Source: Pseudomonadota bacterium
GTDB taxonomy: Bacteria > Pseudomonadota > Alphaproteobacteria > Rickettsiales > SXRF01
Assembly: GCA_963205195.1 (NCBI GenBank)
Contig: CAUJHR010000020.1
Span: 93,589 to 157,588, forward strand
Direction of reading: 5' to 3'
Length of the DNA: 64,000 nucleotides
Shown here: piece after piece, positions 15,622-36,608 of the stretch
How the letters are laid out: every line of letters begins with the position of its first letter
How positions within the stretch are numbered: the first letter of the stretch is position 1
Translations under genes and position numbers: made by a program
Notes under the pieces: model-generated
Seen by the model: only the letters and a program-made list of their open reading frames with translations
What the model was told of the DNA's origin: nothing
Database searches by the model: none

Positions 15622-18225
15622 TTAACGCCAATTAGCCGGTAAGAAAGAATGCTCGATCTTATATTCCGATGACATATTATCGTCAGTAATAAGCCACAAG
15701 CCTTTTTCTGAGAGCACTTTATCACGGATATCTTCCAGTTCAAATCTGGCTAGCTTTTCGCGCATTTGTGCATATTTTTCATTATCATTAGCAAATACAA
15801 CCTTGCCATTATCCCAATTGAAGCCCAACAAATTCCTGTTTTTTTCTTCATAGCTCATGGAAAATGGCTGGTCGCTCGCTGCGACCATGCTATGGAACTG
15901 GACAACATGCTTAAATACATGGGCAGCAGTATAAATATTATCGCGGGCTTCGGTAGTATTATAATAAACGATACCGCCATCATTTAAATGCCGTTTACAT
16001 AGCTCAAGGAATTCACGGGAGAGAAGATTGGAAGCATTATTGCGCCAGTAGTATGTTGTATTCATTACTATGGCATCAAAGCGCTCGTCAGGGTGGTTAG
16101 TAAGCCACCTGCGCCCATCATCAATATAATCAATCCATTTAGGGCTTTTCAATAAAGGGGAGATTTCCGGGTATTTCTCAATCATGCCTATATAACCAGG
16201 GTTTATTTCTATGCTTACCATTTTATCTAAAGGCTTATACATGGTAAATACCCTGGCCCATGAACCGCTGCTAAGGCCAATCTCTAATATACGCTTAGGG
16301 TTTGGGTGCAATGCTGCCAGCATATAGGCGCGTGAAATATCGTTACCATCTACTACCGGATCAATATTATATCTGCCATCATATGCTCCATTGCCATAAA
16401 TAATATCGCCCTTTTTTTTCGATTCTACCACAGTAATGATGCCATGGCGATTCTCGCTTATATGCTTAAATCCTCCGTTTTTTATATTGAGCCCCTGAAG
16501 ATTGAATATTATATTTTCGTAAATTACAGGCTGCAATAATAGAGCGCCAGCTATAGCAGCGGCGCATAACACATAATTCCTTAAAGAAACACGTGATAAC
16601 AATGCAATGGCAAAAACAATAATCACACAAACTATTAATATATTTAATCCAAGGTCGAATTCATTAAGCAAAACAAACCCAGTAATTAGTGACCCTGATG
16701 TAGCGCCTATGATATTAAAAAAATATACCCATGATACAGCAAGACCGGACTTATTGCTGCTAACATTGTTTATACCCATCTGGCAAAGCAAAGGGAATAT
16801 CCCTCCAGAAAATAAAGCAAGCAGCCCTATGGCTATGTAACCAACTCCAATCCCTGTAGTCTGGTCGAAAGAAGATATAAGTCCTACCAGGGGCACCGAG
16901 ATATAAGCTGTAACGACCATGAGTATCAAGGAACGGCTTACAAAAACACGTACATCCTTCCCTGCTTCACTCCAACTCTTGGCTTTTAATGAGCCATAAG
17001 CAATCCCAACCAAAAAAACCGCAAGCAAGGTTCCAAATACCTGAGGTAGGTTGGCGGTCATGAAACCTATAATACGAAACCATAATATCTCCAGGCTGAG
17101 CGAGGCATATCCAATTATAGATGATAATAAAAGTGCCATACCGTATGTAAGTCCGCCATTATTTTGGGAAGAGTTTACATTTGCATCTTTATGCTCGTTA
17201 GAAGAATAGTTTCCTTTATTCTGCTTGCAGAAAGACCATACCATATAAGCCGTAGCAATATTGCAAAGGGCTGCTACCGCCAGTGATGATTGCCTGCCCA
17301 ATGCTGTAAACAGCAGCATTACGGTAAGGAATGATGCAAATGCCGAGCCTAAAGTGTTATAGGCGTATAATTTTCCTACCACAGCCCCGAGATTAGGATG
17401 GCGACGGTGCAAATAAGACACCAGCAAAGGCAGTGTACTACCCATAAGTATAGTTGGTAAAGCCAGCAGTGCAAAAGTAACGCCAATAAGAGCCGGCAGT
17501 GAGTCGCGTGGTGTTATTGCGCCTATGGTTTCTATTAGAGGAATACTTAAAACACCAAAAATCGCTATGGCTATTTCCACACCTACAAAATATTCCAAAA
17601 GCCGATTTGGAAAATATTTCTGCACTTGCCCGCCAACCAGAGAGCCGATACCCAAGCCGAACATAAATATAGCAACAATAACCGTTACCGATTCAATGTT
17701 ACTTCCAAAAGTGGTAAATAAAACACGCTGCCATATAACCTGGTATATCAATGCGGCAAAGCCGGAAACAAAGAATAACTCAGGAATAACATCAAGGGAA
17801 TTAAACCAGCGTTCTTTCTGCGGCTTATCAGCCAGCAACCACAGCAGAAATACTTGCTCCAATGCAAATAATATAAAAATAAGCAGTATGAATGATAAAT
17901 ATGGTTTTATGCCAATTAGAACTAGTCCATAAGCAAGAAAGATAGCATAAGTAAACACATGGTATCTGCCAAACAGAGCGGCTGTGCTATCATTAAGCCC
18001 CAGGCGTTGTATTATTTTAATTGTCCTTTTATATAACTCAATGAATATGGTTGGCACCAGAACACAAAACCCTAACCACATTAGCGGAATTAAATTCTGC
18101 TGCTTCGCCATTTTTTCAGCAGAGAACTGTGACTGCCAGAAGCTCATAAGCATTATTCCGACAAATATTCCGAGGATAATTAACGATATAATATGGGAAA
18201 TTTTTAACTTTTCTTCAGTTTTCAT
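15622..18225 (-). CDS. Fused MFS-like membrane protein / SpeE-like methyltransferase-fold protein
   Basis: An 867-residue two-part protein. Residues ~10-560 hold many hydrophobic helices (including PELFFVSGFAALIYQVIWQR), typical of the family annotated as fused MFS/spermidine synthase. Residues ~590-860 form a soluble Rossmann domain with RILEIGLSSGSWARV and SIEINPGYIGMI as the nucleotide or SAM-like site. Where polyamine synthases carry the catalytic Asp in a DSSDP-like motif this protein reads DAIVMNTTYYW, so aminopropyl transfer to make spermidine is doubtful. It is the last of a three-gene operon, six bases after the channel gene. Substrate unknown. Confidence 0.75.
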   Translation of the reverse strand: MKTEEKLKISHIISLIILGIFVGIMLMSFWQSQFSAEKMAKQQNLIPLMWLGFCVLVPTIFIELYKRTIKIIQRLGLNDSTAALFGRYHVFTYAIFLAYGLVLIGIKPYLSFILLIFILFALEQVFLLWLLADKPQKERWFNSLDVIPELFFVSGFAALIYQVIWQRVLFTTFGSNIESVTVIVAIFMFGLGIGSLVGGQVQKYFPNRLLEYFVGVEIAIAIFGVLSIPLIETIGAITPRDSLPALIGVTFALLALPTILMGSTLPLLVSYLHRRHPNLGAVVGKLYAYNTLGSAFASFLTVMLLFTALGRQSSLAVAALCNIATAYMVWSFCKQNKGNYSSNEHKDANVNSSQNNGGLTYGMALLLSSIIGYASLSLEILWFRIIGFMTANLPQVFGTLLAVFLVGIAYGSLKAKSWSEAGKDVRVFVSRSLILMVVTAYISVPLVGLISSFDQTTGIGVGYIAIGLLALFSGGIFPLLCQMGINNVSSNKSGLAVSWVYFFNIIGATSGSLITGFVLLNEFDLGLNILIVCVIIVFAIALLSRVSLRNYVLCAAAIAGALLLQPVIYENIIFNLQGLNIKNGGFKHISENRHGIITVVESKKKGDIIYGNGAYDGRYNIDPVVDGNDISRAYMLAALHPNPKRILEIGLSSGSWARVFTMYKPLDKMVSIEINPGYIGMIEKYPEISPLLKSPKWIDYIDDGRRWLTNHPDERFDAIVMNTTYYWRNNASNLLSREFLELCKRHLNDGGIVYYNTTEARDNIYTAAHVFKHVVQFHSMVAASDQPFSMSYEEKNRNLLGFNWDNGKVVFANDNEKYAQMREKLARFELEDIRDKVLSEKGLWLITDDNMSSEYKIEHSFLPANWR

Positions 18226-18716: not shown

Positions 18717-20675
18717 CTATAATCCTGCAAAAATATTTTCTAAAGTTTCAATACTTATGGGCTTTACAAGATGGTGATTAAATCCTGCTTCTTTGGAACG
18801 CACCAGATGCTCTTTCTGCCCCCATCCGGTTTGAGCTATTATTACTGCATTTTCCAATTCTGGAAACAACCTTAGAATTTTACATATCTCATAACCATTC
18901 ATTCCTGGAAGCCCGATATCCAGCAATATAATATGCGGTAAATATGATTTCGCAATTTCTATGGCCTGATTCCCCTCATGTGCCAGCATTATTTCGTGCC
19001 CCAGCATCTCCAGCGCCCACCCCAGGGTTTTAGCCGAAGCTTTATTATCATCAACTATCAAAACCCGGTATGTATTTTTTGCGATTGGAATTTGCGGCTT
19101 ATTCTCCTGCTTTTCTTCCCTTGCCGCAATCTGTATCGGCAGGCGCACAGTAAACTCGCTCCCCTGCCCTTTACCAGCACTTGATGCCTTAACCGTTCCT
19201 TTATGCATTCCCACAAGATTCTTAACCAATGTAAGTCCTATGCCCAGCCCGCCTTGTGCACGCTCCATGGAGCTGTCGACCTGAGCGAACAGGTCAAAAA
19301 TCGTGGGCAGCATTTCGCGCGCGATACCAATGCCGTTATCACTTATTTTTATGGTAACGCCCATCTTATCTTCCGTAGCAACAACATTGATCTGTCCTCC
19401 AACATGAGTGTATTTCGCAGAGTTGTTTAATAAATTACTGAAAACCTGTGCCATACGGGTTCTATCCGCATTAAGCCATATAGGTTCTGTTGGGATATTT
19501 ACTGTTAATTTCTGCTTCCTTTCATCAATTAAAGGCTGCGCGCTTTCAATTGCCATATTGATTAATTCCAAAAGGGCTACTTTTGTTGGTCGCAATTCAA
19601 TTTTTCCCAATGTTACCCGCGAAACATCAAGAAGATCATTAAGCAAATGCGTCATCTGCGTGATCTGGCGATCAACAAGCATTGCTGCTTCTTCACGTAT
19701 TTTTTCGCTAACTGATGTTGATTTCATTATATGCATGGCATTGCTTATAGGTGCTAGCGGATTACGAAGCTCATGTGCAAGCATTGCCAGAAATTCATCC
19801 TTACGGCGGTTGGCTTCCTTATATTCAGTTATATCACGCGTGGAACCAGCCACAGCCTCCACTTTTCCATCGGCACCAATTACTGGCCGGAAAATATACT
19901 CATAAATAAGTGTTCCATCAGGGCTGGTGTATGGTGTTTCGTCTTTCAGAGGTTCTTTAGTACGTATTACTTCCTGGATCTTGTCTTGTAGTTTTTGGGC
20001 AAGATCGGGTGGATAATCAAGTTCAAAAAAATTCTTCCCTATGGTTTCTTCAAGGTTTTTATGCCATAAATCCAGCAGCGCCTTATTTACGAAAATAAAC
20101 CTGCCCTCAAGATTGAAAACATAATTAAAATCAGCAGTGTTGGACAGGGCTGTTTCATACATACGCTTCTGCTGGTCGGTTTTTTCCAGCAACACACCAA
20201 GTTTTTGCCCAATCGCATTGGCTTCCATATGGCTTTTCAGCATTTCTAATTCACGCTGGGCGGTTATATCCCTTATTATTCCAACAAGCACTGGCTCGCC
20301 GCTTTCATTGAGGAACAAGGTTTTTTTAGTCGAAATAATATGTTTTGCACCGTTTTGATCAGTAAGGTATTCCTCATTAACCACAGATTGGTTGGTTTGA
20401 AATACCATATTATCTTTTTCCCAAAACACATCAGCTTCTTCTTTAGGAAAGAAATCATAATCTGATTTTCCAAGGAATTTTTCCGGAGGCCCACCCATTA
20501 ATTCCCAAAATGCCCTGTTACCGTCTATCCAGCAATGGTTACGATCCTTCACAAAAATAGGATCTGCTATATTATTAAGCATATTTTTCAGGTAATTATA
20601 TCCGCTCTTATCCTGACTGCCTTGATTCTGGCTGCCACATAAGATACCTGCCGGATTATTTATTTTACCAGTCAT
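18717..20675 (-). CDS. Hybrid sensor histidine kinase (PAS-PAS-HisKA-HATPase-REC)
   Basis: A 652-residue soluble kinase with no membrane segment. PAS domain 1 is at ~26-145 (VGIIRDITAQRE end) and PAS 2 at ~170-290 (AGSTRDITEYKE). HisKA has phospho-acceptor His301 in EFLAMLAHELRNPLAPI. The ATPase domain has an N box (FSNLLNNSAKYT) and G boxes (SDNGIGI, GGLGIGLTL). A C-terminal receiver carries Asp586. It is closely similar in kinase and receiver to the protein at 30.1 kb (shared TGWGQ...HHL.KP). It heads an operon with the channel and MFS/SpeE genes; no DNA-binding output is encoded nearby. The PAS ligand is unknown. Confidence 0.92.
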   Translation of the reverse strand: MTGKINNPAGILCGSQNQGSQDKSGYNYLKNMLNNIADPIFVKDRNHCWIDGNRAFWELMGGPPEKFLGKSDYDFFPKEEADVFWEKDNMVFQTNQSVVNEEYLTDQNGAKHIISTKKTLFLNESGEPVLVGIIRDITAQRELEMLKSHMEANAIGQKLGVLLEKTDQQKRMYETALSNTADFNYVFNLEGRFIFVNKALLDLWHKNLEETIGKNFFELDYPPDLAQKLQDKIQEVIRTKEPLKDETPYTSPDGTLIYEYIFRPVIGADGKVEAVAGSTRDITEYKEANRRKDEFLAMLAHELRNPLAPISNAMHIMKSTSVSEKIREEAAMLVDRQITQMTHLLNDLLDVSRVTLGKIELRPTKVALLELINMAIESAQPLIDERKQKLTVNIPTEPIWLNADRTRMAQVFSNLLNNSAKYTHVGGQINVVATEDKMGVTIKISDNGIGIAREMLPTIFDLFAQVDSSMERAQGGLGIGLTLVKNLVGMHKGTVKASSAGKGQGSEFTVRLPIQIAAREEKQENKPQIPIAKNTYRVLIVDDNKASAKTLGWALEMLGHEIMLAHEGNQAIEIAKSYLPHIILLDIGLPGMNGYEICKILRLFPELENAVIIAQTGWGQKEHLVRSKEAGFNHHLVKPISIETLENIFAGL

Positions 20676-20850
20676 GGATAGCCCTGCTTAGCTATATATT
20701 AAGATGATTATTGCATCAATTCCAAGTCGGGCATCTTACAATAATTCATCCTTATGGGAAAGTTATATAATTCTTTACGCTTTCATATCGCATTATAATG
20801 CATTTTTTTTTAGGGTAGGCATATTAACATCCAACCATCAGGAGATTGAT

Positions 20851-21621
20851 ATGCTTGAGTTTTTTACAAAATTAGATGATAACGATGCTTTAGTATTGCT
20901 ACGTAAAGACCATGACAAAGTGAAGGGTCTTTTTGAAGAATTCGAAAAAGCAGAAAACTTGCGGCATAAAAAGAAAATTGTAGCAGATGCCATTAAAGAA
21001 TTAAAGATTCATGCAACAATCGAAGAAGAAATATTCTATCCAACATTACGCAGCAAAAAGGTGGATAAGGATTTACTAAATGAAGCCGATGAAGAGCACC
21101 ATGTAGCCAAGCTACTTATTGCTGAACTCGACCAGATGGATGGTTCAGAAGAGCATTGGGAAGCAAAATTTACAGTACTTTCAGAAAACATTAAACATCA
21201 TATCAAAGAGGAAGAAGGCGAAATCTTTCCCAAGGCAAGAAATATTGATGTAGATTTCGTTATTCTTGGTAAAAAATTACAGGCTCGCAAAGAACAATTA
21301 ATGAAAAATGGCGTACCTTCTTCGGCTGAAGAAAAAATGATGTCAAAACAGAAAAAAGGCAGCAATGATTCGCCAGCGCAAAATGCTAAAAAATTCAGTG
21401 TTTCTGGAAAGCCGGTTGCTAAACATTTGGTTAAAAAGCCGGCGGTAAAAGCAGGAGCTGCTAAATCTAAAGCCTCTACTGCTAAAAATGGTGCTGTAAA
21501 GAATACTATGTCTAAAAAAATTACGGTAAAAGGCAGTGCCGCTAAAAAATCCATGTCGAAAAGTATGGCAATGAAAAATGCCAAGGCTGGCCATAAAAAT
21601 ATGCGCCATGCCAGCCGCTAA
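20851..21621 (+). CDS. Hemerythrin-like protein with basic histone H1-like tail
   Basis: A 256-residue protein. Residues ~8-150 are an HHE four-helix domain with likely diiron ligands His21, His54, Glu58, His83/His84, His116/His117 and Glu121/Glu122, which can bind O2, NO or iron. From ~165 on the chain becomes a Lys/Ala/Ser-rich tail with repeated KK and AAK steps, resembling histone H1-type tails, so nucleic-acid binding is possible (inference). ATG 20851 is chosen over an upstream in-frame ATG at 20704 because of AGGAGA at 20840 and because the domain starts there. It is divergent from the hybrid kinase. Confidence 0.85.
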   Translation: MLEFFTKLDDNDALVLLRKDHDKVKGLFEEFEKAENLRHKKKIVADAIKELKIHATIEEEIFYPTLRSKKVDKDLLNEADEEHHVAKLLIAELDQMDGSEEHWEAKFTVLSENIKHHIKEEEGEIFPKARNIDVDFVILGKKLQARKEQLMKNGVPSSAEEKMMSKQKKGSNDSPAQNAKKFSVSGKPVAKHLVKKPAVKAGAAKSKASTAKNGAVKNTMSKKITVKGSAAKKSMSKSMAMKNAKAGHKNMRHASR

Positions 21622-21652
21622 TAATAATTAAACCTACAAATCGGGATAATGC

Positions 21653-22744
21653 GTGGAAAAAACTATTGAAGCACCTCTTCTAAACACTAAGGAAGAGGTG
21701 CTAATTCCGACAAATATAAGAACCATATTCCTTGGCGGAATTTTTATAATAGCGCTGCTTTTCGCTATACATGAAGCCAGTGAAATAGTTATTCCCATAG
21801 TTCTTGCCTTTGTCCTAAAACTAGTTTTGCAGCCAGTATTCCGTTTCCTTACAAAATATGGCCTGCCGCGCTCGCTAGCTGCCGCGATTATTGTAATGTC
21901 AATGGTATTTAGCGTTATTGGGCTGGTAACTATGTTGTCAACGCCTGCCGCATCATGGGCAGAAAAACTTCCAGAAAGTTATCCGCAACTGCAACAGCGC
22001 TTGAATTTTCTAAGCAAACCAGTGCAGAAAACCCAGAAGCTTTTGGTAGAGGCAGAAGCCATAACTAAAGGCGAAGGGCCAAGGGTTATGCCAGTTGCTG
22101 TACAGGGGACCCGGCTTACAGATAAAATATTTTCAGGCACACAGGCCCTTGCCAGCGGATTTTTCACAACATTTTTAGTATTGTTTTTCCTGCTAGCTGC
22201 AGGCGATACCTTTTTAAGAAAACTGGTGGAAGTGCTCCCTAAATTCAGTGATAAACGTCAGGCTGTAGATATATCCCAACAGATCGAGCAGGATATTTCT
22301 GTTTACCTTCTAACAATCAGCACAATGAATGCTTGTATGGGAATGCTTACCGCTATAATGATGAAAATCTTAGGTATTGAAGACCCACTATTATGGGGAG
22401 CGCTTGCATTTCTATTAAATTACATACCTATCATAGGCCCTCTTATAACTGCCTCTATTTTGTTGCTGGTAGGACTTCTGGTAATGGATGATATATGGCG
22501 CTCATTCCTCCCTGCCGCCATCTATTTTGTTTTCCATATACTTGAAGGTTCAGTAATAACGCCTATGCTGCTTGCAAAGCGCTTTACGCTTAATCCAGTA
22601 CTGGTTATATTATCCTTGGTATTTTGGTATTGGATGTGGGGAGTCCCTGGGGCAATTCTGGCAATGCCTATGCTTGCCATCACAAAAATAATCTGTGACC
22701 GCATACAGACGTTATCTGCATTTGGCCATTTCCTAGAAGGTTAA
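21653..22744 (+). CDS. AI-2E family transporter (PerM/YdiK type)
   Basis: A 363-residue inner-membrane protein with two N-terminal helices, a polar linker (~105-160), and a helical core containing the family motif DPLLWGALAFLLNYIPIIGPLI. Members export varied solutes; AI-2 export is documented for only a few, so no substrate is assigned. The start is GTG 21653; an ATG four bases earlier is in a frame that closes after six codons. Confidence 0.88.
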   Translation: MEKTIEAPLLNTKEEVLIPTNIRTIFLGGIFIIALLFAIHEASEIVIPIVLAFVLKLVLQPVFRFLTKYGLPRSLAAAIIVMSMVFSVIGLVTMLSTPAASWAEKLPESYPQLQQRLNFLSKPVQKTQKLLVEAEAITKGEGPRVMPVAVQGTRLTDKIFSGTQALASGFFTTFLVLFFLLAAGDTFLRKLVEVLPKFSDKRQAVDISQQIEQDISVYLLTISTMNACMGMLTAIMMKILGIEDPLLWGALAFLLNYIPIIGPLITASILLLVGLLVMDDIWRSFLPAAIYFVFHILEGSVITPMLLAKRFTLNPVLVILSLVFWYWMWGVPGAILAMPMLAITKIICDRIQTLSAFGHFLEG

Positions 22745-22754
22745 AACAAATACA

Positions 22755-23435
22755 ATGCTTAAATTGCCGGAATTTATTGCTCCTGAATCAACGGAGCATG
22801 CGCGCACCATACAAAATTTAATGCGGGCAAAAATAAAAACTGAAAATAGCTTTGGAACTATAAAAACTATAGCAGGGGTTGATGTCGGGTATGACATCGT
22901 GAATGACCTTGCCCATTGCGCTATTGTCATTTTGGACGCAGACTGCCTTAAGCAGATAGAGCAAACTCAAGTTTTTACCCCCGTTAAATTCCCTTATATA
23001 CCAGGACTTCTTTCCTTCCGCGAAATTCCAGCAATACTTGCTGCTCTTTCAACGCTCTCTACTACGCCTGACCTATTTATGGTGGATGGGCATGGAATAG
23101 CTCACCCAAGACGCATGGGAATAGCCGCGCATCTGGGAGTACTTCTTGATATGCCAAGCATTGGCGTTGCTAAATCATGTCTTACCGGAAAGTTCAATAT
23201 GCCGGGAAATCTAAAAGGTGATAAAAGCCCGCTTATGGCCGGGGAAGAACAAATAGGAACAGTTCTACGCAGCCGCGACAATGTAAACCCTCTGTTTATC
23301 TCCCCCGGCCACCGCGTAGCTATGGATACTGCGTGCGATATAGTATCCAGTTGCCTGACGCGTTACCGCCTGCCTGAACCTACACGCCTTGCAGATAAAC
23401 TCTCAAAATGCAAGCCAGAGCAGAATATTATTTAA
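22755..23435 (+). CDS. nfi: Endonuclease V
   Basis: Nicks DNA one nucleotide 3' of deaminated bases such as hypoxanthine. The catalytic set is present: Asp43 in AGVDVGY, Glu90 in SFRE, Asp111 in MVDGHGIAHPRRMG, and the PYIPGLLSFRE wedge region. At 226 aa it matches the family. Its TAA shares bases with the stop of the convergent gst gene. Confidence 0.95.
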   Translation: MLKLPEFIAPESTEHARTIQNLMRAKIKTENSFGTIKTIAGVDVGYDIVNDLAHCAIVILDADCLKQIEQTQVFTPVKFPYIPGLLSFREIPAILAALSTLSTTPDLFMVDGHGIAHPRRMGIAAHLGVLLDMPSIGVAKSCLTGKFNMPGNLKGDKSPLMAGEEQIGTVLRSRDNVNPLFISPGHRVAMDTACDIVSSCLTRYRLPEPTRLADKLSKCKPEQNII

Positions 23436-30140: not shown

Positions 30141-31742
30141 TTATTGAATTTTCTTATTTGCGATCAATTTTGCAAATTCATCAAAATTAACAGGCTTGGT
30201 CAGATGATGGTCAAATCCCGCTTCACGTGCCAACTGACGGTCACGCTCCTGCCCCCAGCCTGTCTGGGCTATCATTAGCGTATCTTTAAATTTAATATCT
30301 TTACGAAGTTCCTTACAAATGTCATAGCCATTCATGCCTGGAAGCCCAATATCAAGTAATATAACATCAAAATTTGATTTCTTTGCGGTTTCCAGCGCTT
30401 CAATCCCATCATGAACCAAAATTGGCTGATGCCCTATTATCTCCAGCATCCACCCAGTGGTTTTAGCCGATGCAACATTATCATCCACAACTAATATTTT
30501 AAGATGCGTCTGGCTATTTTCAGGCGGCACTTCATTATTTACAATTTCTAGTTCGGGTGATTCTTTAGATATCGGCAGGCGGAAAGTAAAAGTGCTTCCT
30601 TTATCAAGACCTGCGCTTTGCGCCTCAATATTCCCGCCGTGCATTTCAACCAATTTTTTGACCAGCGCAAGTCCTATTCCAAGCCCCCCCTGCGATCTCT
30701 CAAGATTTCGGTCAACCTGTGTAAAAAGTTCAAATACTTTAGACAGCATATCTTCACGTATGCCAAGCCCGTTATCAGAAATGGTGATTAAGGCCTCTCC
30801 TTCACTACGAGAAACAGTAAGCCCTATCTTGCCACCTTCGTTCGTATATTTTGCGGCATTATTAAGTACATTACTTATTGCCTGTGCCAGACGTGTAAGG
30901 TCCCCGTCAAGCCATATATCCTCTTGCGGTATATCTAATATTAATTGATGTTTTCCATTTTCAATCAATGGCCTGCTGCTTTCAATCGCAGATTTTATTA
31001 TATCCTGTAAAACCACATGCTGCTTGCGTAAATCTATTTTACCCTGGCTTATACGCGATATATCAAGCAGGTCATCAATCAACCTCACCATATGGGTGAG
31101 CTGCCTGTCCATCATATCCCTTGTTTCCAGTGATACTTTTTCCTGTGGTGACATTTTAAGTATCTGCAAACCGTTACGAATCGGTGCAAGAGGATTACGC
31201 AATTCATGGGCAAGCATGGCAAGGAACTCATCCTTACGTAAATCGGCTTCTTTAAGTGCCTGGGCATAGTGCCTGCTTTCTTGAAGCAAACGGGAGTTTT
31301 CCTCTGCTGCTAGCTTAATCTCATCGCGCTGGCGCGCAACTTGTTGCCGTTGGCGGTAAAGGTCGAAAAAAATATCAGCTTTACTACGCAGAATATCGGG
31401 TTCAATAGGTTTTTGTAGAAAATCAACAGCGCCGGCTTCATAACCTCTAAAGCGCCGCTGCCGGTCTGCGTTTCCTGCAGTTAAAAATATAATTGGGACG
31501 TTTCTGGTACGCTCGGTTCCACGCATGAGTTCTGCCAGCTCGAAGCCATCCATTACCGGCATCTGCACATCCAAAAGCGCAAGGGCAACATCATAACGCA
31601 GTAGTAATTCCAATGCTTCCCGCCCGGAATGTGCCTTTAGAAGAACCAAACCGTCACGGCGCAGCAGAGCTTCGAGCGACATGAGGTTTTCCTCCAGGTC
31701 GTCAACAAGTAAAAAATATACCAGCTCATGCTCTGAATTCAT
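30141..31742 (-). CDS. REC-HisKA-HATPase-REC hybrid histidine kinase
   Basis: A 533-residue soluble kinase flanked by receivers. REC1 (~8-125) has Asp58. A short coiled linker precedes HisKA with His179 in AHELRNPLAP. The ATPase domain has SNVLNNAAKYT and GGLGIGLAL. REC2 (~415-530) has Asp464 and the TGWGQ...HHLTKP end shared with the kinase at 18.7 kb. It overlaps cheB by four bases as the last gene of the signalling operon. It probably receives phosphate from, or signals along with, the upstream CHASE3 kinase; this is inference. Confidence 0.92.
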   Translation of the reverse strand: MNSEHELVYFLLVDDLEENLMSLEALLRRDGLVLLKAHSGREALELLLRYDVALALLDVQMPVMDGFELAELMRGTERTRNVPIIFLTAGNADRQRRFRGYEAGAVDFLQKPIEPDILRSKADIFFDLYRQRQQVARQRDEIKLAAEENSRLLQESRHYAQALKEADLRKDEFLAMLAHELRNPLAPIRNGLQILKMSPQEKVSLETRDMMDRQLTHMVRLIDDLLDISRISQGKIDLRKQHVVLQDIIKSAIESSRPLIENGKHQLILDIPQEDIWLDGDLTRLAQAISNVLNNAAKYTNEGGKIGLTVSRSEGEALITISDNGLGIREDMLSKVFELFTQVDRNLERSQGGLGIGLALVKKLVEMHGGNIEAQSAGLDKGSTFTFRLPISKESPELEIVNNEVPPENSQTHLKILVVDDNVASAKTTGWMLEIIGHQPILVHDGIEALETAKKSNFDVILLDIGLPGMNGYDICKELRKDIKFKDTLMIAQTGWGQERDRQLAREAGFDHHLTKPVNFDEFAKLIANKKIQ

Positions 31743-32329
31743 GATAAGCCTATATTACTAATACATAGCGCAATTTGTTTAAGGCTCATAATTTCTGCAT
31801 CAGGGCATGCGGCAATAGCAGCTTCAGGCATTGGCCTGGCATAAGCATCTTTAGGATTTTGCACAATTACCCTTCCACCCTCATTTTTTATAGCCTTAAC
31901 CCCATTTGCGCCATCGCTGCTCGCACCAGACAAAATAATTCCCAATAAATATGCCCCATACACATCAGCGGCAGTTTCAAACAATACGTCTATTGCTGGA
32001 CGGGAAAACAAGATAGGTTCTTCGGTAGAGAGTGATAAGAACTTTCCCGGCTCTACCAATATATGGTAATCAGGCGGGGCAAAATAAATTGTTCCGGCTT
32101 TTATTGGCTCTTTATCCATAGCCTCATGCACATCCATACTGCATTTAGCTTGTAGCAATTCAGAAATAACACTTTTTTTGTCCGGTGGCAGGTGAACTAC
32201 CACCATTATAGGGATCGGGTAATCTGCAGGTAATCCACTAAGAACAGAAAAAAGGGCCTCAACCGCACCCGCAGAGCTACCTATTACAATTGCTTCTGGC
32301 TTTTTGTCTTCAGTTGTTTCGGTGTTCAC
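31739..32329 (-). CDS. cheB: CheB-type methylesterase domain without receiver
   Basis: A 196-residue protein holding only the catalytic domain of CheB, which removes methyl groups from glutamates of chemoreceptor-like proteins. The triad is Ser19 (GSSAGA), His46 (VVHLPP) and Asp139 (SGASSDGANG). The N-terminal receiver of classical CheB is missing. It overlaps cheR and the REC-kinase gene by four bases each. No methyl-accepting receptor is encoded in the window, so the target is likely a non-chemotaxis partner. Confidence 0.9.
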   Translation of the reverse strand: MNTETTEDKKPEAIVIGSSAGAVEALFSVLSGLPADYPIPIMVVVHLPPDKKSVISELLQAKCSMDVHEAMDKEPIKAGTIYFAPPDYHILVEPGKFLSLSTEEPILFSRPAIDVLFETAADVYGAYLLGIILSGASSDGANGVKAIKNEGGRVIVQNPKDAYARPMPEAAIAACPDAEIMSLKQIALCISNIGLS

Positions 32330-33180
32330 AGATCACCCCGCTTCTGGTATAGGCGTTCCTCACGGTCAAAGACTGTAAAAGCTTCGTAATGTTTTGAAAA
32401 TTGAAGGCTCTCTTTAGAACCTAAGCCAAGATATCCTTTACGTATAAGGGAATCCTTAAAAAGCCCAAGCGCCCTGTCTTGCAGATCGCGATCAAAATAA
32501 ATAAGCACATTTCGGCAGGATATTAACTGCACTTCTGCAAAAACCGTATCGCTTACCAGGCTATGATCGGAAAATACTGTTCGCGCCCGCAGGCTTTTAT
32601 CAAAATTTGCAGCGCCATATGCCGCTGTATAATACTCCGACAACGATGATTTGCCGCCAGAGGCACGGTGGTTTTCCGTAAAAAGCTTTATGCGCTCAAG
32701 CTCATAAAGCCCACCTTGCGCTTTTTTCAAAGCATCAGGATTTATGTCAGTTGCGTAGAACATGGTCCTGTCTTCCAACCCTTCCTCGCGGAACAATATG
32801 GAAAATGAATATAGCTCTTCACCTGTTGAGCAACCTGCAATCCATACTTTGAGCGACGGGTAAGTACGCAGGTGCGGAACTATTTTTTCGCGTATTGTCT
32901 TAAAATATAGCGGATCACGGAACATTTCACTTACTTGAACTGTCAGGTATGAAAGAAGCTTAGGAAGCATATCCGGTTCATGAAGCATACGGTCTTGCAA
33001 CTGTGAATATGTTTTACATGCAAAATAGTCACGTGCCTGCTTAAGCCTCCTCTTGACGGACGCCATAGAATAGCCGCGGAAATCATAATGATATTTACGG
33101 AACAATGCCTCCAAAAGCAGTTTTATCTCAATATCATCTGTTTTTGGTGTAGGGATAAGGTTTTTTATCTCGGCATCCAT
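32326..33180 (-). CDS. cheR: CheR-type protein-glutamate methyltransferase
   Basis: A 284-residue SAM-dependent methyltransferase with the helical N-terminal CheR domain (~15-80) and the Rossmann catalytic domain: IAGCSTGEELYSFSI binds SAM, FYATDINPDALKKA follows, and LISCRNVLIYF is the late family motif. It overlaps the end of the large kinase gene by 16 bases and cheB by four. Confidence 0.93.
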   Translation of the reverse strand: MDAEIKNLIPTPKTDDIEIKLLLEALFRKYHYDFRGYSMASVKRRLKQARDYFACKTYSQLQDRMLHEPDMLPKLLSYLTVQVSEMFRDPLYFKTIREKIVPHLRTYPSLKVWIAGCSTGEELYSFSILFREEGLEDRTMFYATDINPDALKKAQGGLYELERIKLFTENHRASGGKSSLSEYYTAAYGAANFDKSLRARTVFSDHSLVSDTVFAEVQLISCRNVLIYFDRDLQDRALGLFKDSLIRKGYLGLGSKESLQFSKHYEAFTVFDREERLYQKRGDL

Positions 33181-36100
33181 ACACGTACAAGGGATAGGAG
33201 TTTTTCTACATCCAGCGGCTTTGCCATATAATCATTAGCTCCTGCATCAAGACAGCGCTCCTGATCATCTTTCATAGCTTTGGCAGTAAGCATTATAATT
33301 GGAAGCTTCTTCCATTCAGGATGTTTGCGGATTTCCCGGGTAGCAGTAAGCCCATCCATCTCCGGCATCATAACATCCATTAGCACAAGGTCTATGGCAT
33401 TGGCTTCATCAACCATACAGGAATTTAATTTTTCAAGTGCTTCACGGCCATTACGCGCTATTTTTACAATAGCCCCCAACGGTTCGAATATGCTTGTAAT
33501 TGCGTAAACATTGCGGACATCATCCTCTACAACCAATATGCGCTTGCCCTCAAGCAAAGTATCGCGGTTTCTTGCCGTTTCAAGCATACGCTGCTGTTCA
33601 GGCGGCAATTCGGAAACCACCTGATGCAGGAATAAAGTAACTTCATCAAGCAGGCGCTCCGGTGATTTCGCCCCTTTTATTATAATTGATTTAGAATATC
33701 GGCGCAGACGCTGCTCTTCATCGGAAGAAATATCACGCCCCGTATAAACAATAACCGGCGGGAAAGAATATTCATCTTCCTTGCTTAAGGTTTCAAGCAA
33801 ATTATGCCCCGAAGCATCAGGCAGCGTTAAATCCAAAACCATGCAATCAAAGGTTTCTTCTTTCAGGCGCTCCAAGCACTCAGATGCAGTACCTACCCCC
33901 ACCGTAGTTACATCATGAGAACCAAGCAATTTACCAAGGCTTTCACGCTGGGTATCATCATCTTCAACTATTAGTACACGGCGCATTGTCTGTGCCAGAC
34001 GTTTTTCAAGCTGCTTTAAAGTGCTTATAAGCTCCTCGCGTTTTACCGGCTTTATCATATAGCCTATAGCACCAAGCGACATTGCAGTTTTTGTATAGTC
34101 GTTTGCCGATACTACATGAACAGGTATGTGGCGTGTCCTAGGATCGCGTTTAAGCCTATCAAGGACCGAAAGCCCAGAATAATCAGGAAGCCCTACATCT
34201 AAAACAATTGCACTTGGTAAATATTGCCGAGCTATAACCAGCGCATCTTCAGCGCTATGGGAAATAAGACATTGGAAATCTAATTCATGCGCCAGGTCAT
34301 AAAGGATTCGCGCAAATGATTCATCATCTTCGACAACCATTATGGTGCTTTTATTAGCCGATAGATGCTCACGATCATCATCAATATGTATTATTTTCTG
34401 GCGCTGCTCTGCAGGTAACGGGATATCTTCCATTTCGTATTTATCAAATTCAAAAGGATTGTTTTTATATTGCCGCACCAGTTTCTCATTATATATCTCT
34501 GGTATAGTTAAGGTAAAACTGCTGCCTTTGCCTTGTTCACTTACCAGATGCAATGACCCGCCAAGTAACCGCGTAAGTTCGCGTGATATAGACAAGCCAA
34601 GCCCAGTACCGCCATATTTACGGCTTATAGTACCATCAGCCTGCCTGAATGCATCAAATATAGCCTGCTGCTGCTCCTTTGCTATACCAATGCCGGTATC
34701 AGTTACTGTAAAAGAAATTAGCCCATTGCTCGCACAGCTTATGGTAAGCTCAACTTTTCCATGTTCAGTAAATTTAATAGCGTTGGAAATAAGGTTCCTA
34801 AGTATCTGCTCAAGCCGCAGGCGGTCAGTATCAATTGTATCTGGGCAACCTGCTGTGGTTTTAATATTGAAGCTTAGCCCCTTATGCTGTGCAAGAGGTT
34901 CGAAATTGCGGGATAGATCATTTACCAGCCGGTTAAACGGTACTGATTCGGCGCTTATTTCCATATGTCCGGCTTCTATCTTTGATAAATCAAGTATATC
35001 ATTAATCAAAGTCAGGAGATCATTGCCAGATGACTGGATTGTCTGTGCATACTTAACCTGTTCACTTGTTAAATTCCCCCCAGAATTATCTGCAAGCAAT
35101 TTAGCAAGGATTAAAGATGAATTAAGCGGCGTGCGAAGTTCATGTGACATATTCGCGAGAAAATCGGATTTATAACGGCTGGCCTGCTCCAATTCCTGAG
35201 CTTTAAGCTGTACAGCATTTTTAGCCTTTGCCAGGTCATCACGCTGTATTTCAAGCAGCTGGGTTTGCTCCTCAAGCTGTGTATTAGTCTGCTCAAGTTC
35301 TGCCTGCTGCAATTCAAGGTTAGCCTGCGAAGCTTTAAGCGCCCTGCTTTGCTCTTCCAGCTCTTCATTGGAAACACGCAGCTCTTCGCTTTGCGCTTGT
35401 AATTCTTCAGCCTGCCGTTGAGTTTCTTCCAAAAGATTCTGGAGGTGGGAACGATAATTGGCCGAGCGTACAGCAATAGCGATAGAATCGGCCATTTGCT
35501 CCAAAAGCTCCAAAGTACGCTTTTGTGGGGGGTGTATGAACCCAAACTCTATTACGGTATTAACAAAACCATCTATTGTAATTGGCGATATTAGCAAATG
35601 CCTTGGTGTGCCTTTACTCATAGCTGAACCGATAGTCAAATAATTTTCCGGCACATCATTAATTATAAAATTCTTTATTTCTTTTACTGCCTGCCCAAGA
35701 AGGCCGTCACTAGTATCGAATTTTTCAATGATTTTACTACCTGCAGGAATGCCGTAACTGGCAACGCGGTTATAATAATTCCCATTCTTTATAAAAATAG
35801 CGCCGGCCTGTGCACCAAAATATTCTGACAGGAATCCCAGTATATTTTCGCCAAGCTTCTCTATACGCTGCTCACCGGTCATAGCGATGCTGAGGCCAAC
35901 CTGCCCGGATTGCAGCCATTCCTGACGCTGCCTTGCAATTGCATTACGCCTTATTAAATATGCAACAATACCTGAAAGCAGTACCCCAAGAAGCCCAGAC
36001 AGGATACCGCTGGTAATAGCAGTTTTATAGGAACCCCCCATTTCTGAAAGGCGCCGCGAACGCAAATCCTGCTCTGCATCCTGCATAATATCAATCTGGG

Positions 36101-36608
36101 CGCGCACTGCATCCATCTCATTTTTACCATAATCGGTAGCTATTTGAGAAAAGGCAGCGCCTGCCCCTTTATTGCGGTATATGTTTATTACATTATGCAG
36201 CTCACTAAGCTTAGCTTTAATATGCTCACGCAGAATAGGTATACGCGCCTGCTGTTCAGGACTAGCCCTTGTCAGGCGTTCAATATCATTTAAGCGCTGC
36301 TCTATTAATGGTAATGCAGAATTATATGGCTCAAGATATTTATCATCACCAGTTATTATAAAGCCCCTTTGCCCGGTTTCAGTGTCCTTCATCAAAGACA
36401 TCAAATCACTAGTAGCCACTATTACATCGTGTGTATGAATGACAAGCTGCGAATCATCACTAAGCATACTGGTATTATAATAAGAAATCACACCGCTTAT
36501 GGCAAAGAAAGCAATAACTACCGTAAGCCCTAGCGAAATTGGGATATCAGTTTTTAACATACGGTTTTTGGAAATATCTGTTAATTCAGATGTGCCTTTT
36601 TTATTCAT
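33165..36608 (-). CDS. CHASE3-GAF hybrid histidine kinase with three receiver domains
   Basis: An 1147-residue membrane kinase. Membrane helices at ~22-43 and ~197-219 flank a periplasmic CHASE3 domain (DTETGQRGFIITGDD at ~75-89). A GAF domain (~240-380), a Glu/Gln-rich coiled coil (~385-475), HisKA with His489 in DFLANMSHELRTPLN, and an ATPase domain with ILRNLISNAIKFT and GGTGLGLSI follow. Three receivers carry Asp804, Asp926 and Asp1078. The second lacks the usual Lys-Pro and reads IIIKGAKSPE, so it may be non-switching. It is first in a four-gene overlapping operon with cheR, cheB and a REC-kinase-REC gene. The sensed signal is unknown. Confidence 0.93.
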   Translation of the reverse strand: MNKKGTSELTDISKNRMLKTDIPISLGLTVVIAFFAISGVISYYNTSMLSDDSQLVIHTHDVIVATSDLMSLMKDTETGQRGFIITGDDKYLEPYNSALPLIEQRLNDIERLTRASPEQQARIPILREHIKAKLSELHNVINIYRNKGAGAAFSQIATDYGKNEMDAVRAQIDIMQDAEQDLRSRRLSEMGGSYKTAITSGILSGLLGVLLSGIVAYLIRRNAIARQRQEWLQSGQVGLSIAMTGEQRIEKLGENILGFLSEYFGAQAGAIFIKNGNYYNRVASYGIPAGSKIIEKFDTSDGLLGQAVKEIKNFIINDVPENYLTIGSAMSKGTPRHLLISPITIDGFVNTVIEFGFIHPPQKRTLELLEQMADSIAIAVRSANYRSHLQNLLEETQRQAEELQAQSEELRVSNEELEEQSRALKASQANLELQQAELEQTNTQLEEQTQLLEIQRDDLAKAKNAVQLKAQELEQASRYKSDFLANMSHELRTPLNSSLILAKLLADNSGGNLTSEQVKYAQTIQSSGNDLLTLINDILDLSKIEAGHMEISAESVPFNRLVNDLSRNFEPLAQHKGLSFNIKTTAGCPDTIDTDRLRLEQILRNLISNAIKFTEHGKVELTISCASNGLISFTVTDTGIGIAKEQQQAIFDAFRQADGTISRKYGGTGLGLSISRELTRLLGGSLHLVSEQGKGSSFTLTIPEIYNEKLVRQYKNNPFEFDKYEMEDIPLPAEQRQKIIHIDDDREHLSANKSTIMVVEDDESFARILYDLAHELDFQCLISHSAEDALVIARQYLPSAIVLDVGLPDYSGLSVLDRLKRDPRTRHIPVHVVSANDYTKTAMSLGAIGYMIKPVKREELISTLKQLEKRLAQTMRRVLIVEDDDTQRESLGKLLGSHDVTTVGVGTASECLERLKEETFDCMVLDLTLPDASGHNLLETLSKEDEYSFPPVIVYTGRDISSDEEQRLRRYSKSIIIKGAKSPERLLDEVTLFLHQVVSELPPEQQRMLETARNRDTLLEGKRILVVEDDVRNVYAITSIFEPLGAIVKIARNGREALEKLNSCMVDEANAIDLVLMDVMMPEMDGLTATREIRKHPEWKKLPIIMLTAKAMKDDQERCLDAGANDYMAKPLDVEKLLSLVRVWMPR

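Follow-up and report, generated by a model that had tools for sequence, protein, structure and literature searches.

A hemerythrin-type protein with a histone H1-like basic tail in a Rickettsiales genome: a candidate diiron protein acting at DNA

The present analysis concerns a protein of 256 residues, encoded at positions 20851-21621 (plus strand) of a stretch of DNA of 64,000 nucleotides (hereafter the window), in which an HHE/hemerythrin domain is followed by a fifth helix, a linker with a DSPA motif and a basic tail. We consider that there is about an even chance that this is a diiron hemerythrin acting at DNA, where it would be held by its histone H1-like tail. The elements of this reading that were established directly are the domain, its conserved His and Glu residues, the basic tail with its predicted disorder, and the likeness of this tail, in register, to an H1-like protein of the same genome.

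The gene and its hemerythrin-type domain

The ATG at 20851 is preceded by a Shine-Dalgarno-like AGGAG, read in the sequence at 20840-20844 (plus strand), and close homologues share this starting methionine; a longer start, from the ATG at 20704, was thus unsupported. Promoter scans were negative: with the alphaproteobacterial EcfG-type consensus (one spacing, at most one mismatch), no match was found before the hemerythrin gene and the window contained 6 matches versus 7.35 expected, and a sigma-70 scan of positions 20500-22000 gave 2 sites versus 4.4 in shuffled sequences.

Residues 15-129 (20893-21237, plus strand) match PF01814 at 57.6 bits, above the Pfam cut-off of 25.3, so that the hemerythrin domain is indeed where a preliminary description of this DNA had placed it, as is, judging from composition, the Lys/Ala/Ser-rich tail. 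It is the sole PF01814 match found in the 1.88 Mb genome. Since no other Pfam family matches the protein at E <= 1e-3, membership of the Dps or ferritin family was rejected, as was identity with the RIC/YtfE repair protein (TIGR03652, 16.5 bits versus a cut-off of 204.7). In an AlphaFold model computed from 28 sequences, 154 residues have a pLDDT of at least 90, and helices are predicted at residues 13-33, 37-68, 73-94, 103-130 and 136-153, the last confident one, followed by short ones at 159-169 and 175-183, the rest being unstructured. The fifth helix (residues 136-153; 21256-21309, plus strand) leads into a linker (residues 154-172; 21310-21366, plus strand), which includes the predicted helix 159-169 and is conserved in the subfamily, and then into the DSPA motif, located in the 28-sequence alignment at residues 173-176 (21367-21378, plus strand). 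The part preceding the linker is acidic (residues 1-152, net charge -8, pI 5.5).

Eleven positions (H21, H54, E58, E59, Y63, E82, H83, H116, H117, E121 and E122) are invariant in all 28 aligned sequences. Because this His/Glu set is kept throughout the alignment, a metal site is very likely; five of the invariant residues are histidines (21, 54, 83, 116 and 117) and are candidate metal ligands. The ligand set described for O2-binding hemerythrins comprises five His, one Glu and one Asp (PMC9388753). The best relative in the PDB, by sequence (profile E 1.3e-13) as well as by structure (Foldseek E 4.5e-5), is the hemerythrin-like protein 6q09 of Mycobacterium kansasii (Rv2633c class), to which VIA-align superimposes 148 residues, spanning residues 10-160, at Z 17.1 and rmsd 2.5, the next row being at Z 14.1. 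The M. kansasii protein is monomeric, has five helices and an oxo-bridged diiron site, and acts as an NO peroxidase (PMC8913304). The modelled protein likewise displays a four-helix bundle with an additional fifth helix, as is typical of that class, and conserved His/Glu positions are shared, whereas identity is limited to 25-26% and the 170-residue chain of 6q09 has no such basic tail. The adjacent Tyr-Tyr pair in helix 2 of 6q09 is aligned here with F62-Y63, the second Tyr alone being kept; the first one (Tyr54) is, we presume, an iron ligand in M. kansasii. The domain had been described at first as a sensor: nothing pointing to sensing was found, and the fold is closest to this five-helix NO peroxidase.

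The basic tail and its H1-like character

Residues 153-256 contain 24 Lys, 17 Ala and 15 Ser, with a net charge of +23 and a pI of 11. The last 80 residues (177-256; 21379-21618, plus strand) carry a net charge of +22, which makes them the most basic C-terminus among the 58 non-overlapping window ORFs of at least 120 residues (runner-up, +13), and 2926 other 80-residue segments have a mean net charge of -0.8 (sd 3.5) and a maximum of +13. From residue 171 onwards, ten-residue means of pLDDT range from 53 to 67, consistent with disorder. About 90 residues had been assigned to the tail in the preliminary description; its basic nature was confirmed, with the clearly H1-like part amounting to about 80 residues (177-256) placed after the conserved DSPA linker. 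Lys/Arg spacings of 5 and 10 residues were more frequent than in shuffled tails (0.01 and 0.00 of 1000, ten lags having been examined), and the tail has the features of lysine-repeat tails, being periodic, Lys/Ala-rich, H1-like and, by prediction, disordered. At the DNA level, Tandem Repeats Finder detected no array in the tail, and an origin by tandem repetition was rejected; two 34-nt stretches lying 81 bases apart are 71% alike. Descent of the tail from the gene for the H1-like protein of this genome was also set aside at this level, the score of 38 being weak and equalled by 11 of 500 codon shuffles.

The genome contains one stand-alone H1-like protein (103 residues, AAKKP repeats, ending in KKVTPIRL; G000:C11:154812-155117, represented in L126 and L137), which matches HC2 (PF07382) at 41.5-41.9 bits for a cut-off of 40. 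Similar proteins are found in members of the genus and of the family (L125, L128, L135). Residues 181-256 of the tail align in register with this resident protein at a score of 99; 1000 shuffled versions of the tail averaged 61.6, and not one reached that value. When the H1-like protein was searched against its own genome at E <= 10, it retrieved itself, the C-terminal tail of topoisomerase I (identified by Pfam) and the hemerythrin tail, and nothing else, the two non-self matches being weak (E 0.08 and E 0.18, respectively). Within the source genome, the H1-type likeness proposed at first thus appears well founded, and better so than could be known from the window. It does not extend to the family model, since residues 153-256 score 15.5 bits on HC2, under the cut-off of 40, nor to most relatives: among eight relatives' tails, compared with the H1-like protein of the window genome and not with their own, one (L066) was weakly above shuffles (26 of 1000 reached its score) and seven (L045, L047, L049, L050, L054, L059 and L070) did no better than shuffles (192-939 of 1000).

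Because its tail resembles that of the resident H1-like protein, the window protein may work while attached to the chromosome, or else to ribosomes. Similar appendages occur elsewhere in the order, where AAKKP-like stretches are found at the C-terminus of a trigger factor (L129:2205-3734, minus strand) and of a topoisomerase I (L134:799-3426, plus strand) and at the N-terminus of a sigma-70 factor (L133:2470-4500, plus strand), all three named by Pfam; HC2 gives 31.5 bits on the trigger factor tail and 24.7 on the start of the sigma factor, both below cut-off. Given these carriers, H1-like tails accompany DNA work and ribosome work alike. Actinobacterial TopA, HrdB, Ku and HupS have been reported to contain lysine repeats, and Ku and HupB require their lysine-repeat tails to bind DNA (PMC7398561, PMC5676037). 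The window protein is comparable to HupB, Ku, HrdB and actinobacterial TopA in that an H1-like C-tail or repeats of the PAKK/KAAK type are borne by a folded protein; it differs in that its folded part is hemerythrin-like, whereas theirs is DNA machinery.

Binding of nucleic acid by the tail, as proposed at first, is in our view probable, given its H1-like character and the HupB and Ku precedents. DNA is not the sole candidate, since a tail of this type is also found on a trigger factor of the order and the nearest named family binds ribosomes; it is, in our judgement, the likelier of the two targets. The main rival to the DNA reading is indeed ribosome binding: the protein could be a ribosome-directed dormancy factor resembling Pseudomonas PA2171, in which case its hemerythrin-like domain would bind the ribosome (or FtsZ) and slow translation under stress, with the tail strengthening rRNA binding. 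PA2171 is a ribosome-binding protein that inhibits translation in vitro, and its authors speculated that it has no DNA- or RNA-binding domain (PMC13041383). Its family model, NF053874 (PA2171 ribosome-binding persister protein), is the best NCBIfam match over the whole domain of the window protein (78.4 bits, residues 13-153), and all 28 aligned subfamily members match it at E <= 0.001. The 78.4 bits are nevertheless far under the cut-off of 190, the model is tail-less (157 positions), and five homologues devoid of a basic C-tail match it as well (58.7-93.1 bits); since these score alike and all remain far under the cut-off, the match reflects the fold and not the role. Furthermore, while the AAKKP tail on a trigger factor in the same order speaks for a ribosomal function, in its own genome the non-self matches of the H1-like protein are confined to the tails of the hemerythrin and of topoisomerase I. 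A dormancy factor of this kind thus seems possible, at clearly lower probability than action at DNA.

Distribution of the subfamily and its gene neighbourhood

A profile built from seven relatives retrieved at least 33 loci from the genome collection, mostly from metagenome-assembled genomes, the taxa among the listed loci including Alphaproteobacteria, Asticcacaulis, Acidobacteria groups, Planctomycetes, Elusimicrobia and Dehalococcoidia. In a tree of 74 domains, from which 27 locus rows (second copies, cut or partial sequences, some weak ones) and rows of less than 28% identity had been left out, 28 rows from five named phyla cluster at modest support (80/80, the bootstrap not being fully settled), and the DSPA motif or a variant of it is present in the linker of 24 of these 28 rows. 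As judged from alignment and tree, domain and linker define a subfamily spanning five phyla. With regard to the same fusion, for which a search had been advised in the preliminary description, a tail that is both long (40 residues or more) and basic (net charge of at least +8) is present in 12 of the 28 subfamily rows, and the tail is short or absent in many orthologues. Among cultured members, it is short in Asticcacaulis and Zavarzinella formosa (L052, L057, L058). In the neighbouring group of the tree, 27 of 28 homologues have no long basic tail, and several show a basic extension at the N-terminus instead. When the tail label was placed on the tree (28 rows: 13 bearing the long basic tail, including L034 from outside the group, and 15 that have the motif and no such tail), 7 changes were needed, 3 of them forced by well-supported branches, and 30 of 500 shuffles needed as few; on this tree, the long basic tail has changed several times within the subfamily.

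Downstream of the DSPA-type motif, the stretch varies from 6 to 98 residues, and its net charge is positive in 20 and zero in 3 of 23 distinct motif-bearing proteins, with negative values in none; when everything after residue 152 is counted, linker included, it is negative in 5 of the 23 (L046, L052, L055, L057 and L061). The charge is carried by Lys or by Arg, depending on the genome, and relatives' tails share composition with hardly any alignable sequence. In the Dehalococcoidia protein L066:4923-5720, the tail is strongly H1-like, with a net charge of +35 and no acidic residue, and the DSPA motif is absent. Other appendages were also observed. Basic low-complexity N-terminal extensions, with uncertain starts, replace the C-tail in L017, L022, L027, L031, L034 and L040, L034 having a basic C-terminal stretch besides. 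Two hemerythrin-domain proteins (L035:1084-2433, and L037 on the minus strand) bear long C-tails of repeated GGWYGDPEGHSEASRRGWE-like units, another type of appended repeat.

Such variability raises the question of whether the protein is an ordinary small hemerythrin with a fast-drifting, lineage-specific basic extension, the role of which would be weak and generic (solubility, charge or non-specific stickiness). The range of lengths, the seven label changes, the barely alignable tails and the lack of H1-like likeness beyond composition in seven of eight relatives are what such drift would produce. Drift accords poorly with a post-motif charge that is negative in no protein while Lys and Arg are swapped between genomes, and with the periodicity of the window tail and its match to the resident H1-like protein; we hold this explanation to be unlikely.

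Within the order, the subfamily gene was detected in 7 of 262 genomes (matches above 280 bits), while the genus has it in none of its 3 other genomes and the family in 2 of its 12 others, and 6 of the 9 copies in those seven order genomes have a long basic tail. Such a patchy distribution is what transfer or loss would leave. Among viral contigs, 47 pattern matches were obtained and tblastn gave no relative.

In the window, the hemerythrin gene is followed after 31 bases by a gene for an AI-2E family transporter (21653-22744, plus strand; PF01594, 169.5 bits), a possible operon partner, and 10 bases past the latter by a gene for endonuclease V, involved in the repair of deaminated bases (22755-23435, plus strand; PF04493, 251 bits). 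Of eight relatives searched, only G011 and G014 were found to have the transporter at an identity of at least 60%. Endonuclease V was found in 4 of 4 relatives possessing the subfamily hemerythrin and in none of 13 without it (17 relatives; in G014 as short fragments only). Across the order (262 genomes), the subfamily hemerythrin occurs in 7 genomes, endonuclease V (by Pfam) in 13 and both in 4 (P 1.2e-4), and when any hemerythrin hit is counted, the figures are 22, 13 and 7, respectively (P 1.4e-5), which is more co-occurrence than expected, both P values ignoring kinship, completeness and genome size. In G011 (C24; L120:13124-14714, minus strand), a broken endonuclease V gene adjoins the hemerythrin gene, with frame changes that may be an assembly fault, and the ORF between its pieces is glucosamine-isomerase-like. 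Endonuclease V acts in the repair of deaminated adenine, which arises under nitrosative stress, and this would fit with an NO-reactive neighbour.

On the other side of the gene lies a divergently oriented PAS histidine kinase with a receiver domain (18717-20675, minus strand; Pfam), and a cluster encoding a CHASE3-GAF kinase, CheR, CheB and a kinase is located at 30141-36608 (minus strand), its orthologue in G011 being 0.8 kb from the hemerythrin gene. The gene at 15622-18225 (minus strand) encodes 867 residues with a spermidine-synthase-like C-terminal domain and adjoins those of an ion channel and of the PAS histidine kinase. Both kinase loci would suit a diiron sensor whose ligand state alters the presentation of tail or linker and thereby regulates chromosome structure or transcription. 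Yet Pfam finds no output domain, no partner is conserved across the wider set of loci and kinases are common, so that this explanation seems quite improbable, the least favoured of those considered. Beyond the family, the neighbourhood is indeed mostly not conserved (33 loci and the window): leaving aside the hemerythrin gene and frames that overlap it, groups recurring in at least three loci are kinases or receivers (8 loci), a pyrophosphatase (L060, L063, L070), AI-2E transporters (window, L060, L072) and an unnamed group common to L052, L061 and L074, and YflT-type heat-induced stress proteins lie near the gene in 3 of the 33 loci (L044:1117-1719, L050:3537-4145, L051:1638-2150). The remaining shared neighbours are only pairwise, many of them between two Asticcacaulis loci, and single cases beside the gene include Ku (L063) and a PHP-domain, polymerase-type protein (L062).

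A possible role at the chromosome

Mechanistically, a five-helix diiron protein of the hemerythrin fold would react with NO, H2O2 or O2, or would hold iron, and its flexible H1-like lysine tail, joined through the conserved DSPA linker, would anchor it to nucleic acid, most probably to the chromosome. Reactive species could then be destroyed or buffered, or loose iron bound, beside DNA, in a manner similar to that of Dps or HupB without being either. Iron binding, DNA binding and a protective role of the window protein are what we infer from this arrangement. The PF01814 match with its invariant His/Glu positions, the match to the NO peroxidase 6q09, the post-motif charge that is negative in none of 23 proteins, the likeness to the H1-like protein, whose one other non-self match is the topoisomerase I tail, the HupB and Ku precedents and the proximity of and co-occurrence with endonuclease V speak for action at DNA. 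Against it stand a composition that cannot separate DNA from RNA, the similarly tailed trigger factor in the order, the relatives' tails without a match (seven of eight), the many members with little tail, the five motif-bearing proteins that are net negative after residue 152, the HC2 score below cut-off, a co-occurrence uncorrected for kinship or genome size and the mostly unconserved neighbourhoods.

Hemerythrins and lysine-repeat tails are each of a known kind; in the open-licence full-text literature searched, we found no report of a bacterial hemerythrin that carries a tail of the H1-like or lysine-repeat type. Among long hemerythrin architectures, the most numerous group (56.9%) has been described as having terminal regions with no clear Pfam homologues (PMC4919030), and lysine tails may therefore sit there unremarked. 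As for the subfamily as a whole, we propose only tentatively that DSPA-linker hemerythrins of five phyla work at the chromosome or the ribosome, each being an NO- or peroxide-consuming diiron unit that a lineage-specific basic tail (here of the resident H1 type) attaches to nucleic acid, and that they are functionally paired with endonuclease V.

Dps offers a precedent for iron chemistry and DNA binding combined in one protein, the lysine-rich N-terminus binding DNA in Escherichia coli (PMC10536872). The window protein would resemble it as a helical iron-binding protein attached to DNA by a lysine-rich terminus (N-terminal in E. coli Dps), whereas Dps is a twelve-subunit cage of the ferritin family and the structure nearest to the window protein, of family PF01814, is a monomer. 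If the proposed reading is true, a hemerythrin with an H1-like tail would constitute a second, unrelated solution to the Dps-type combination, and a role would be suggested for small hemerythrins that, as a group, lack one in the annotation used here, with tailed and tail-less relatives offering a ready-made natural experiment.
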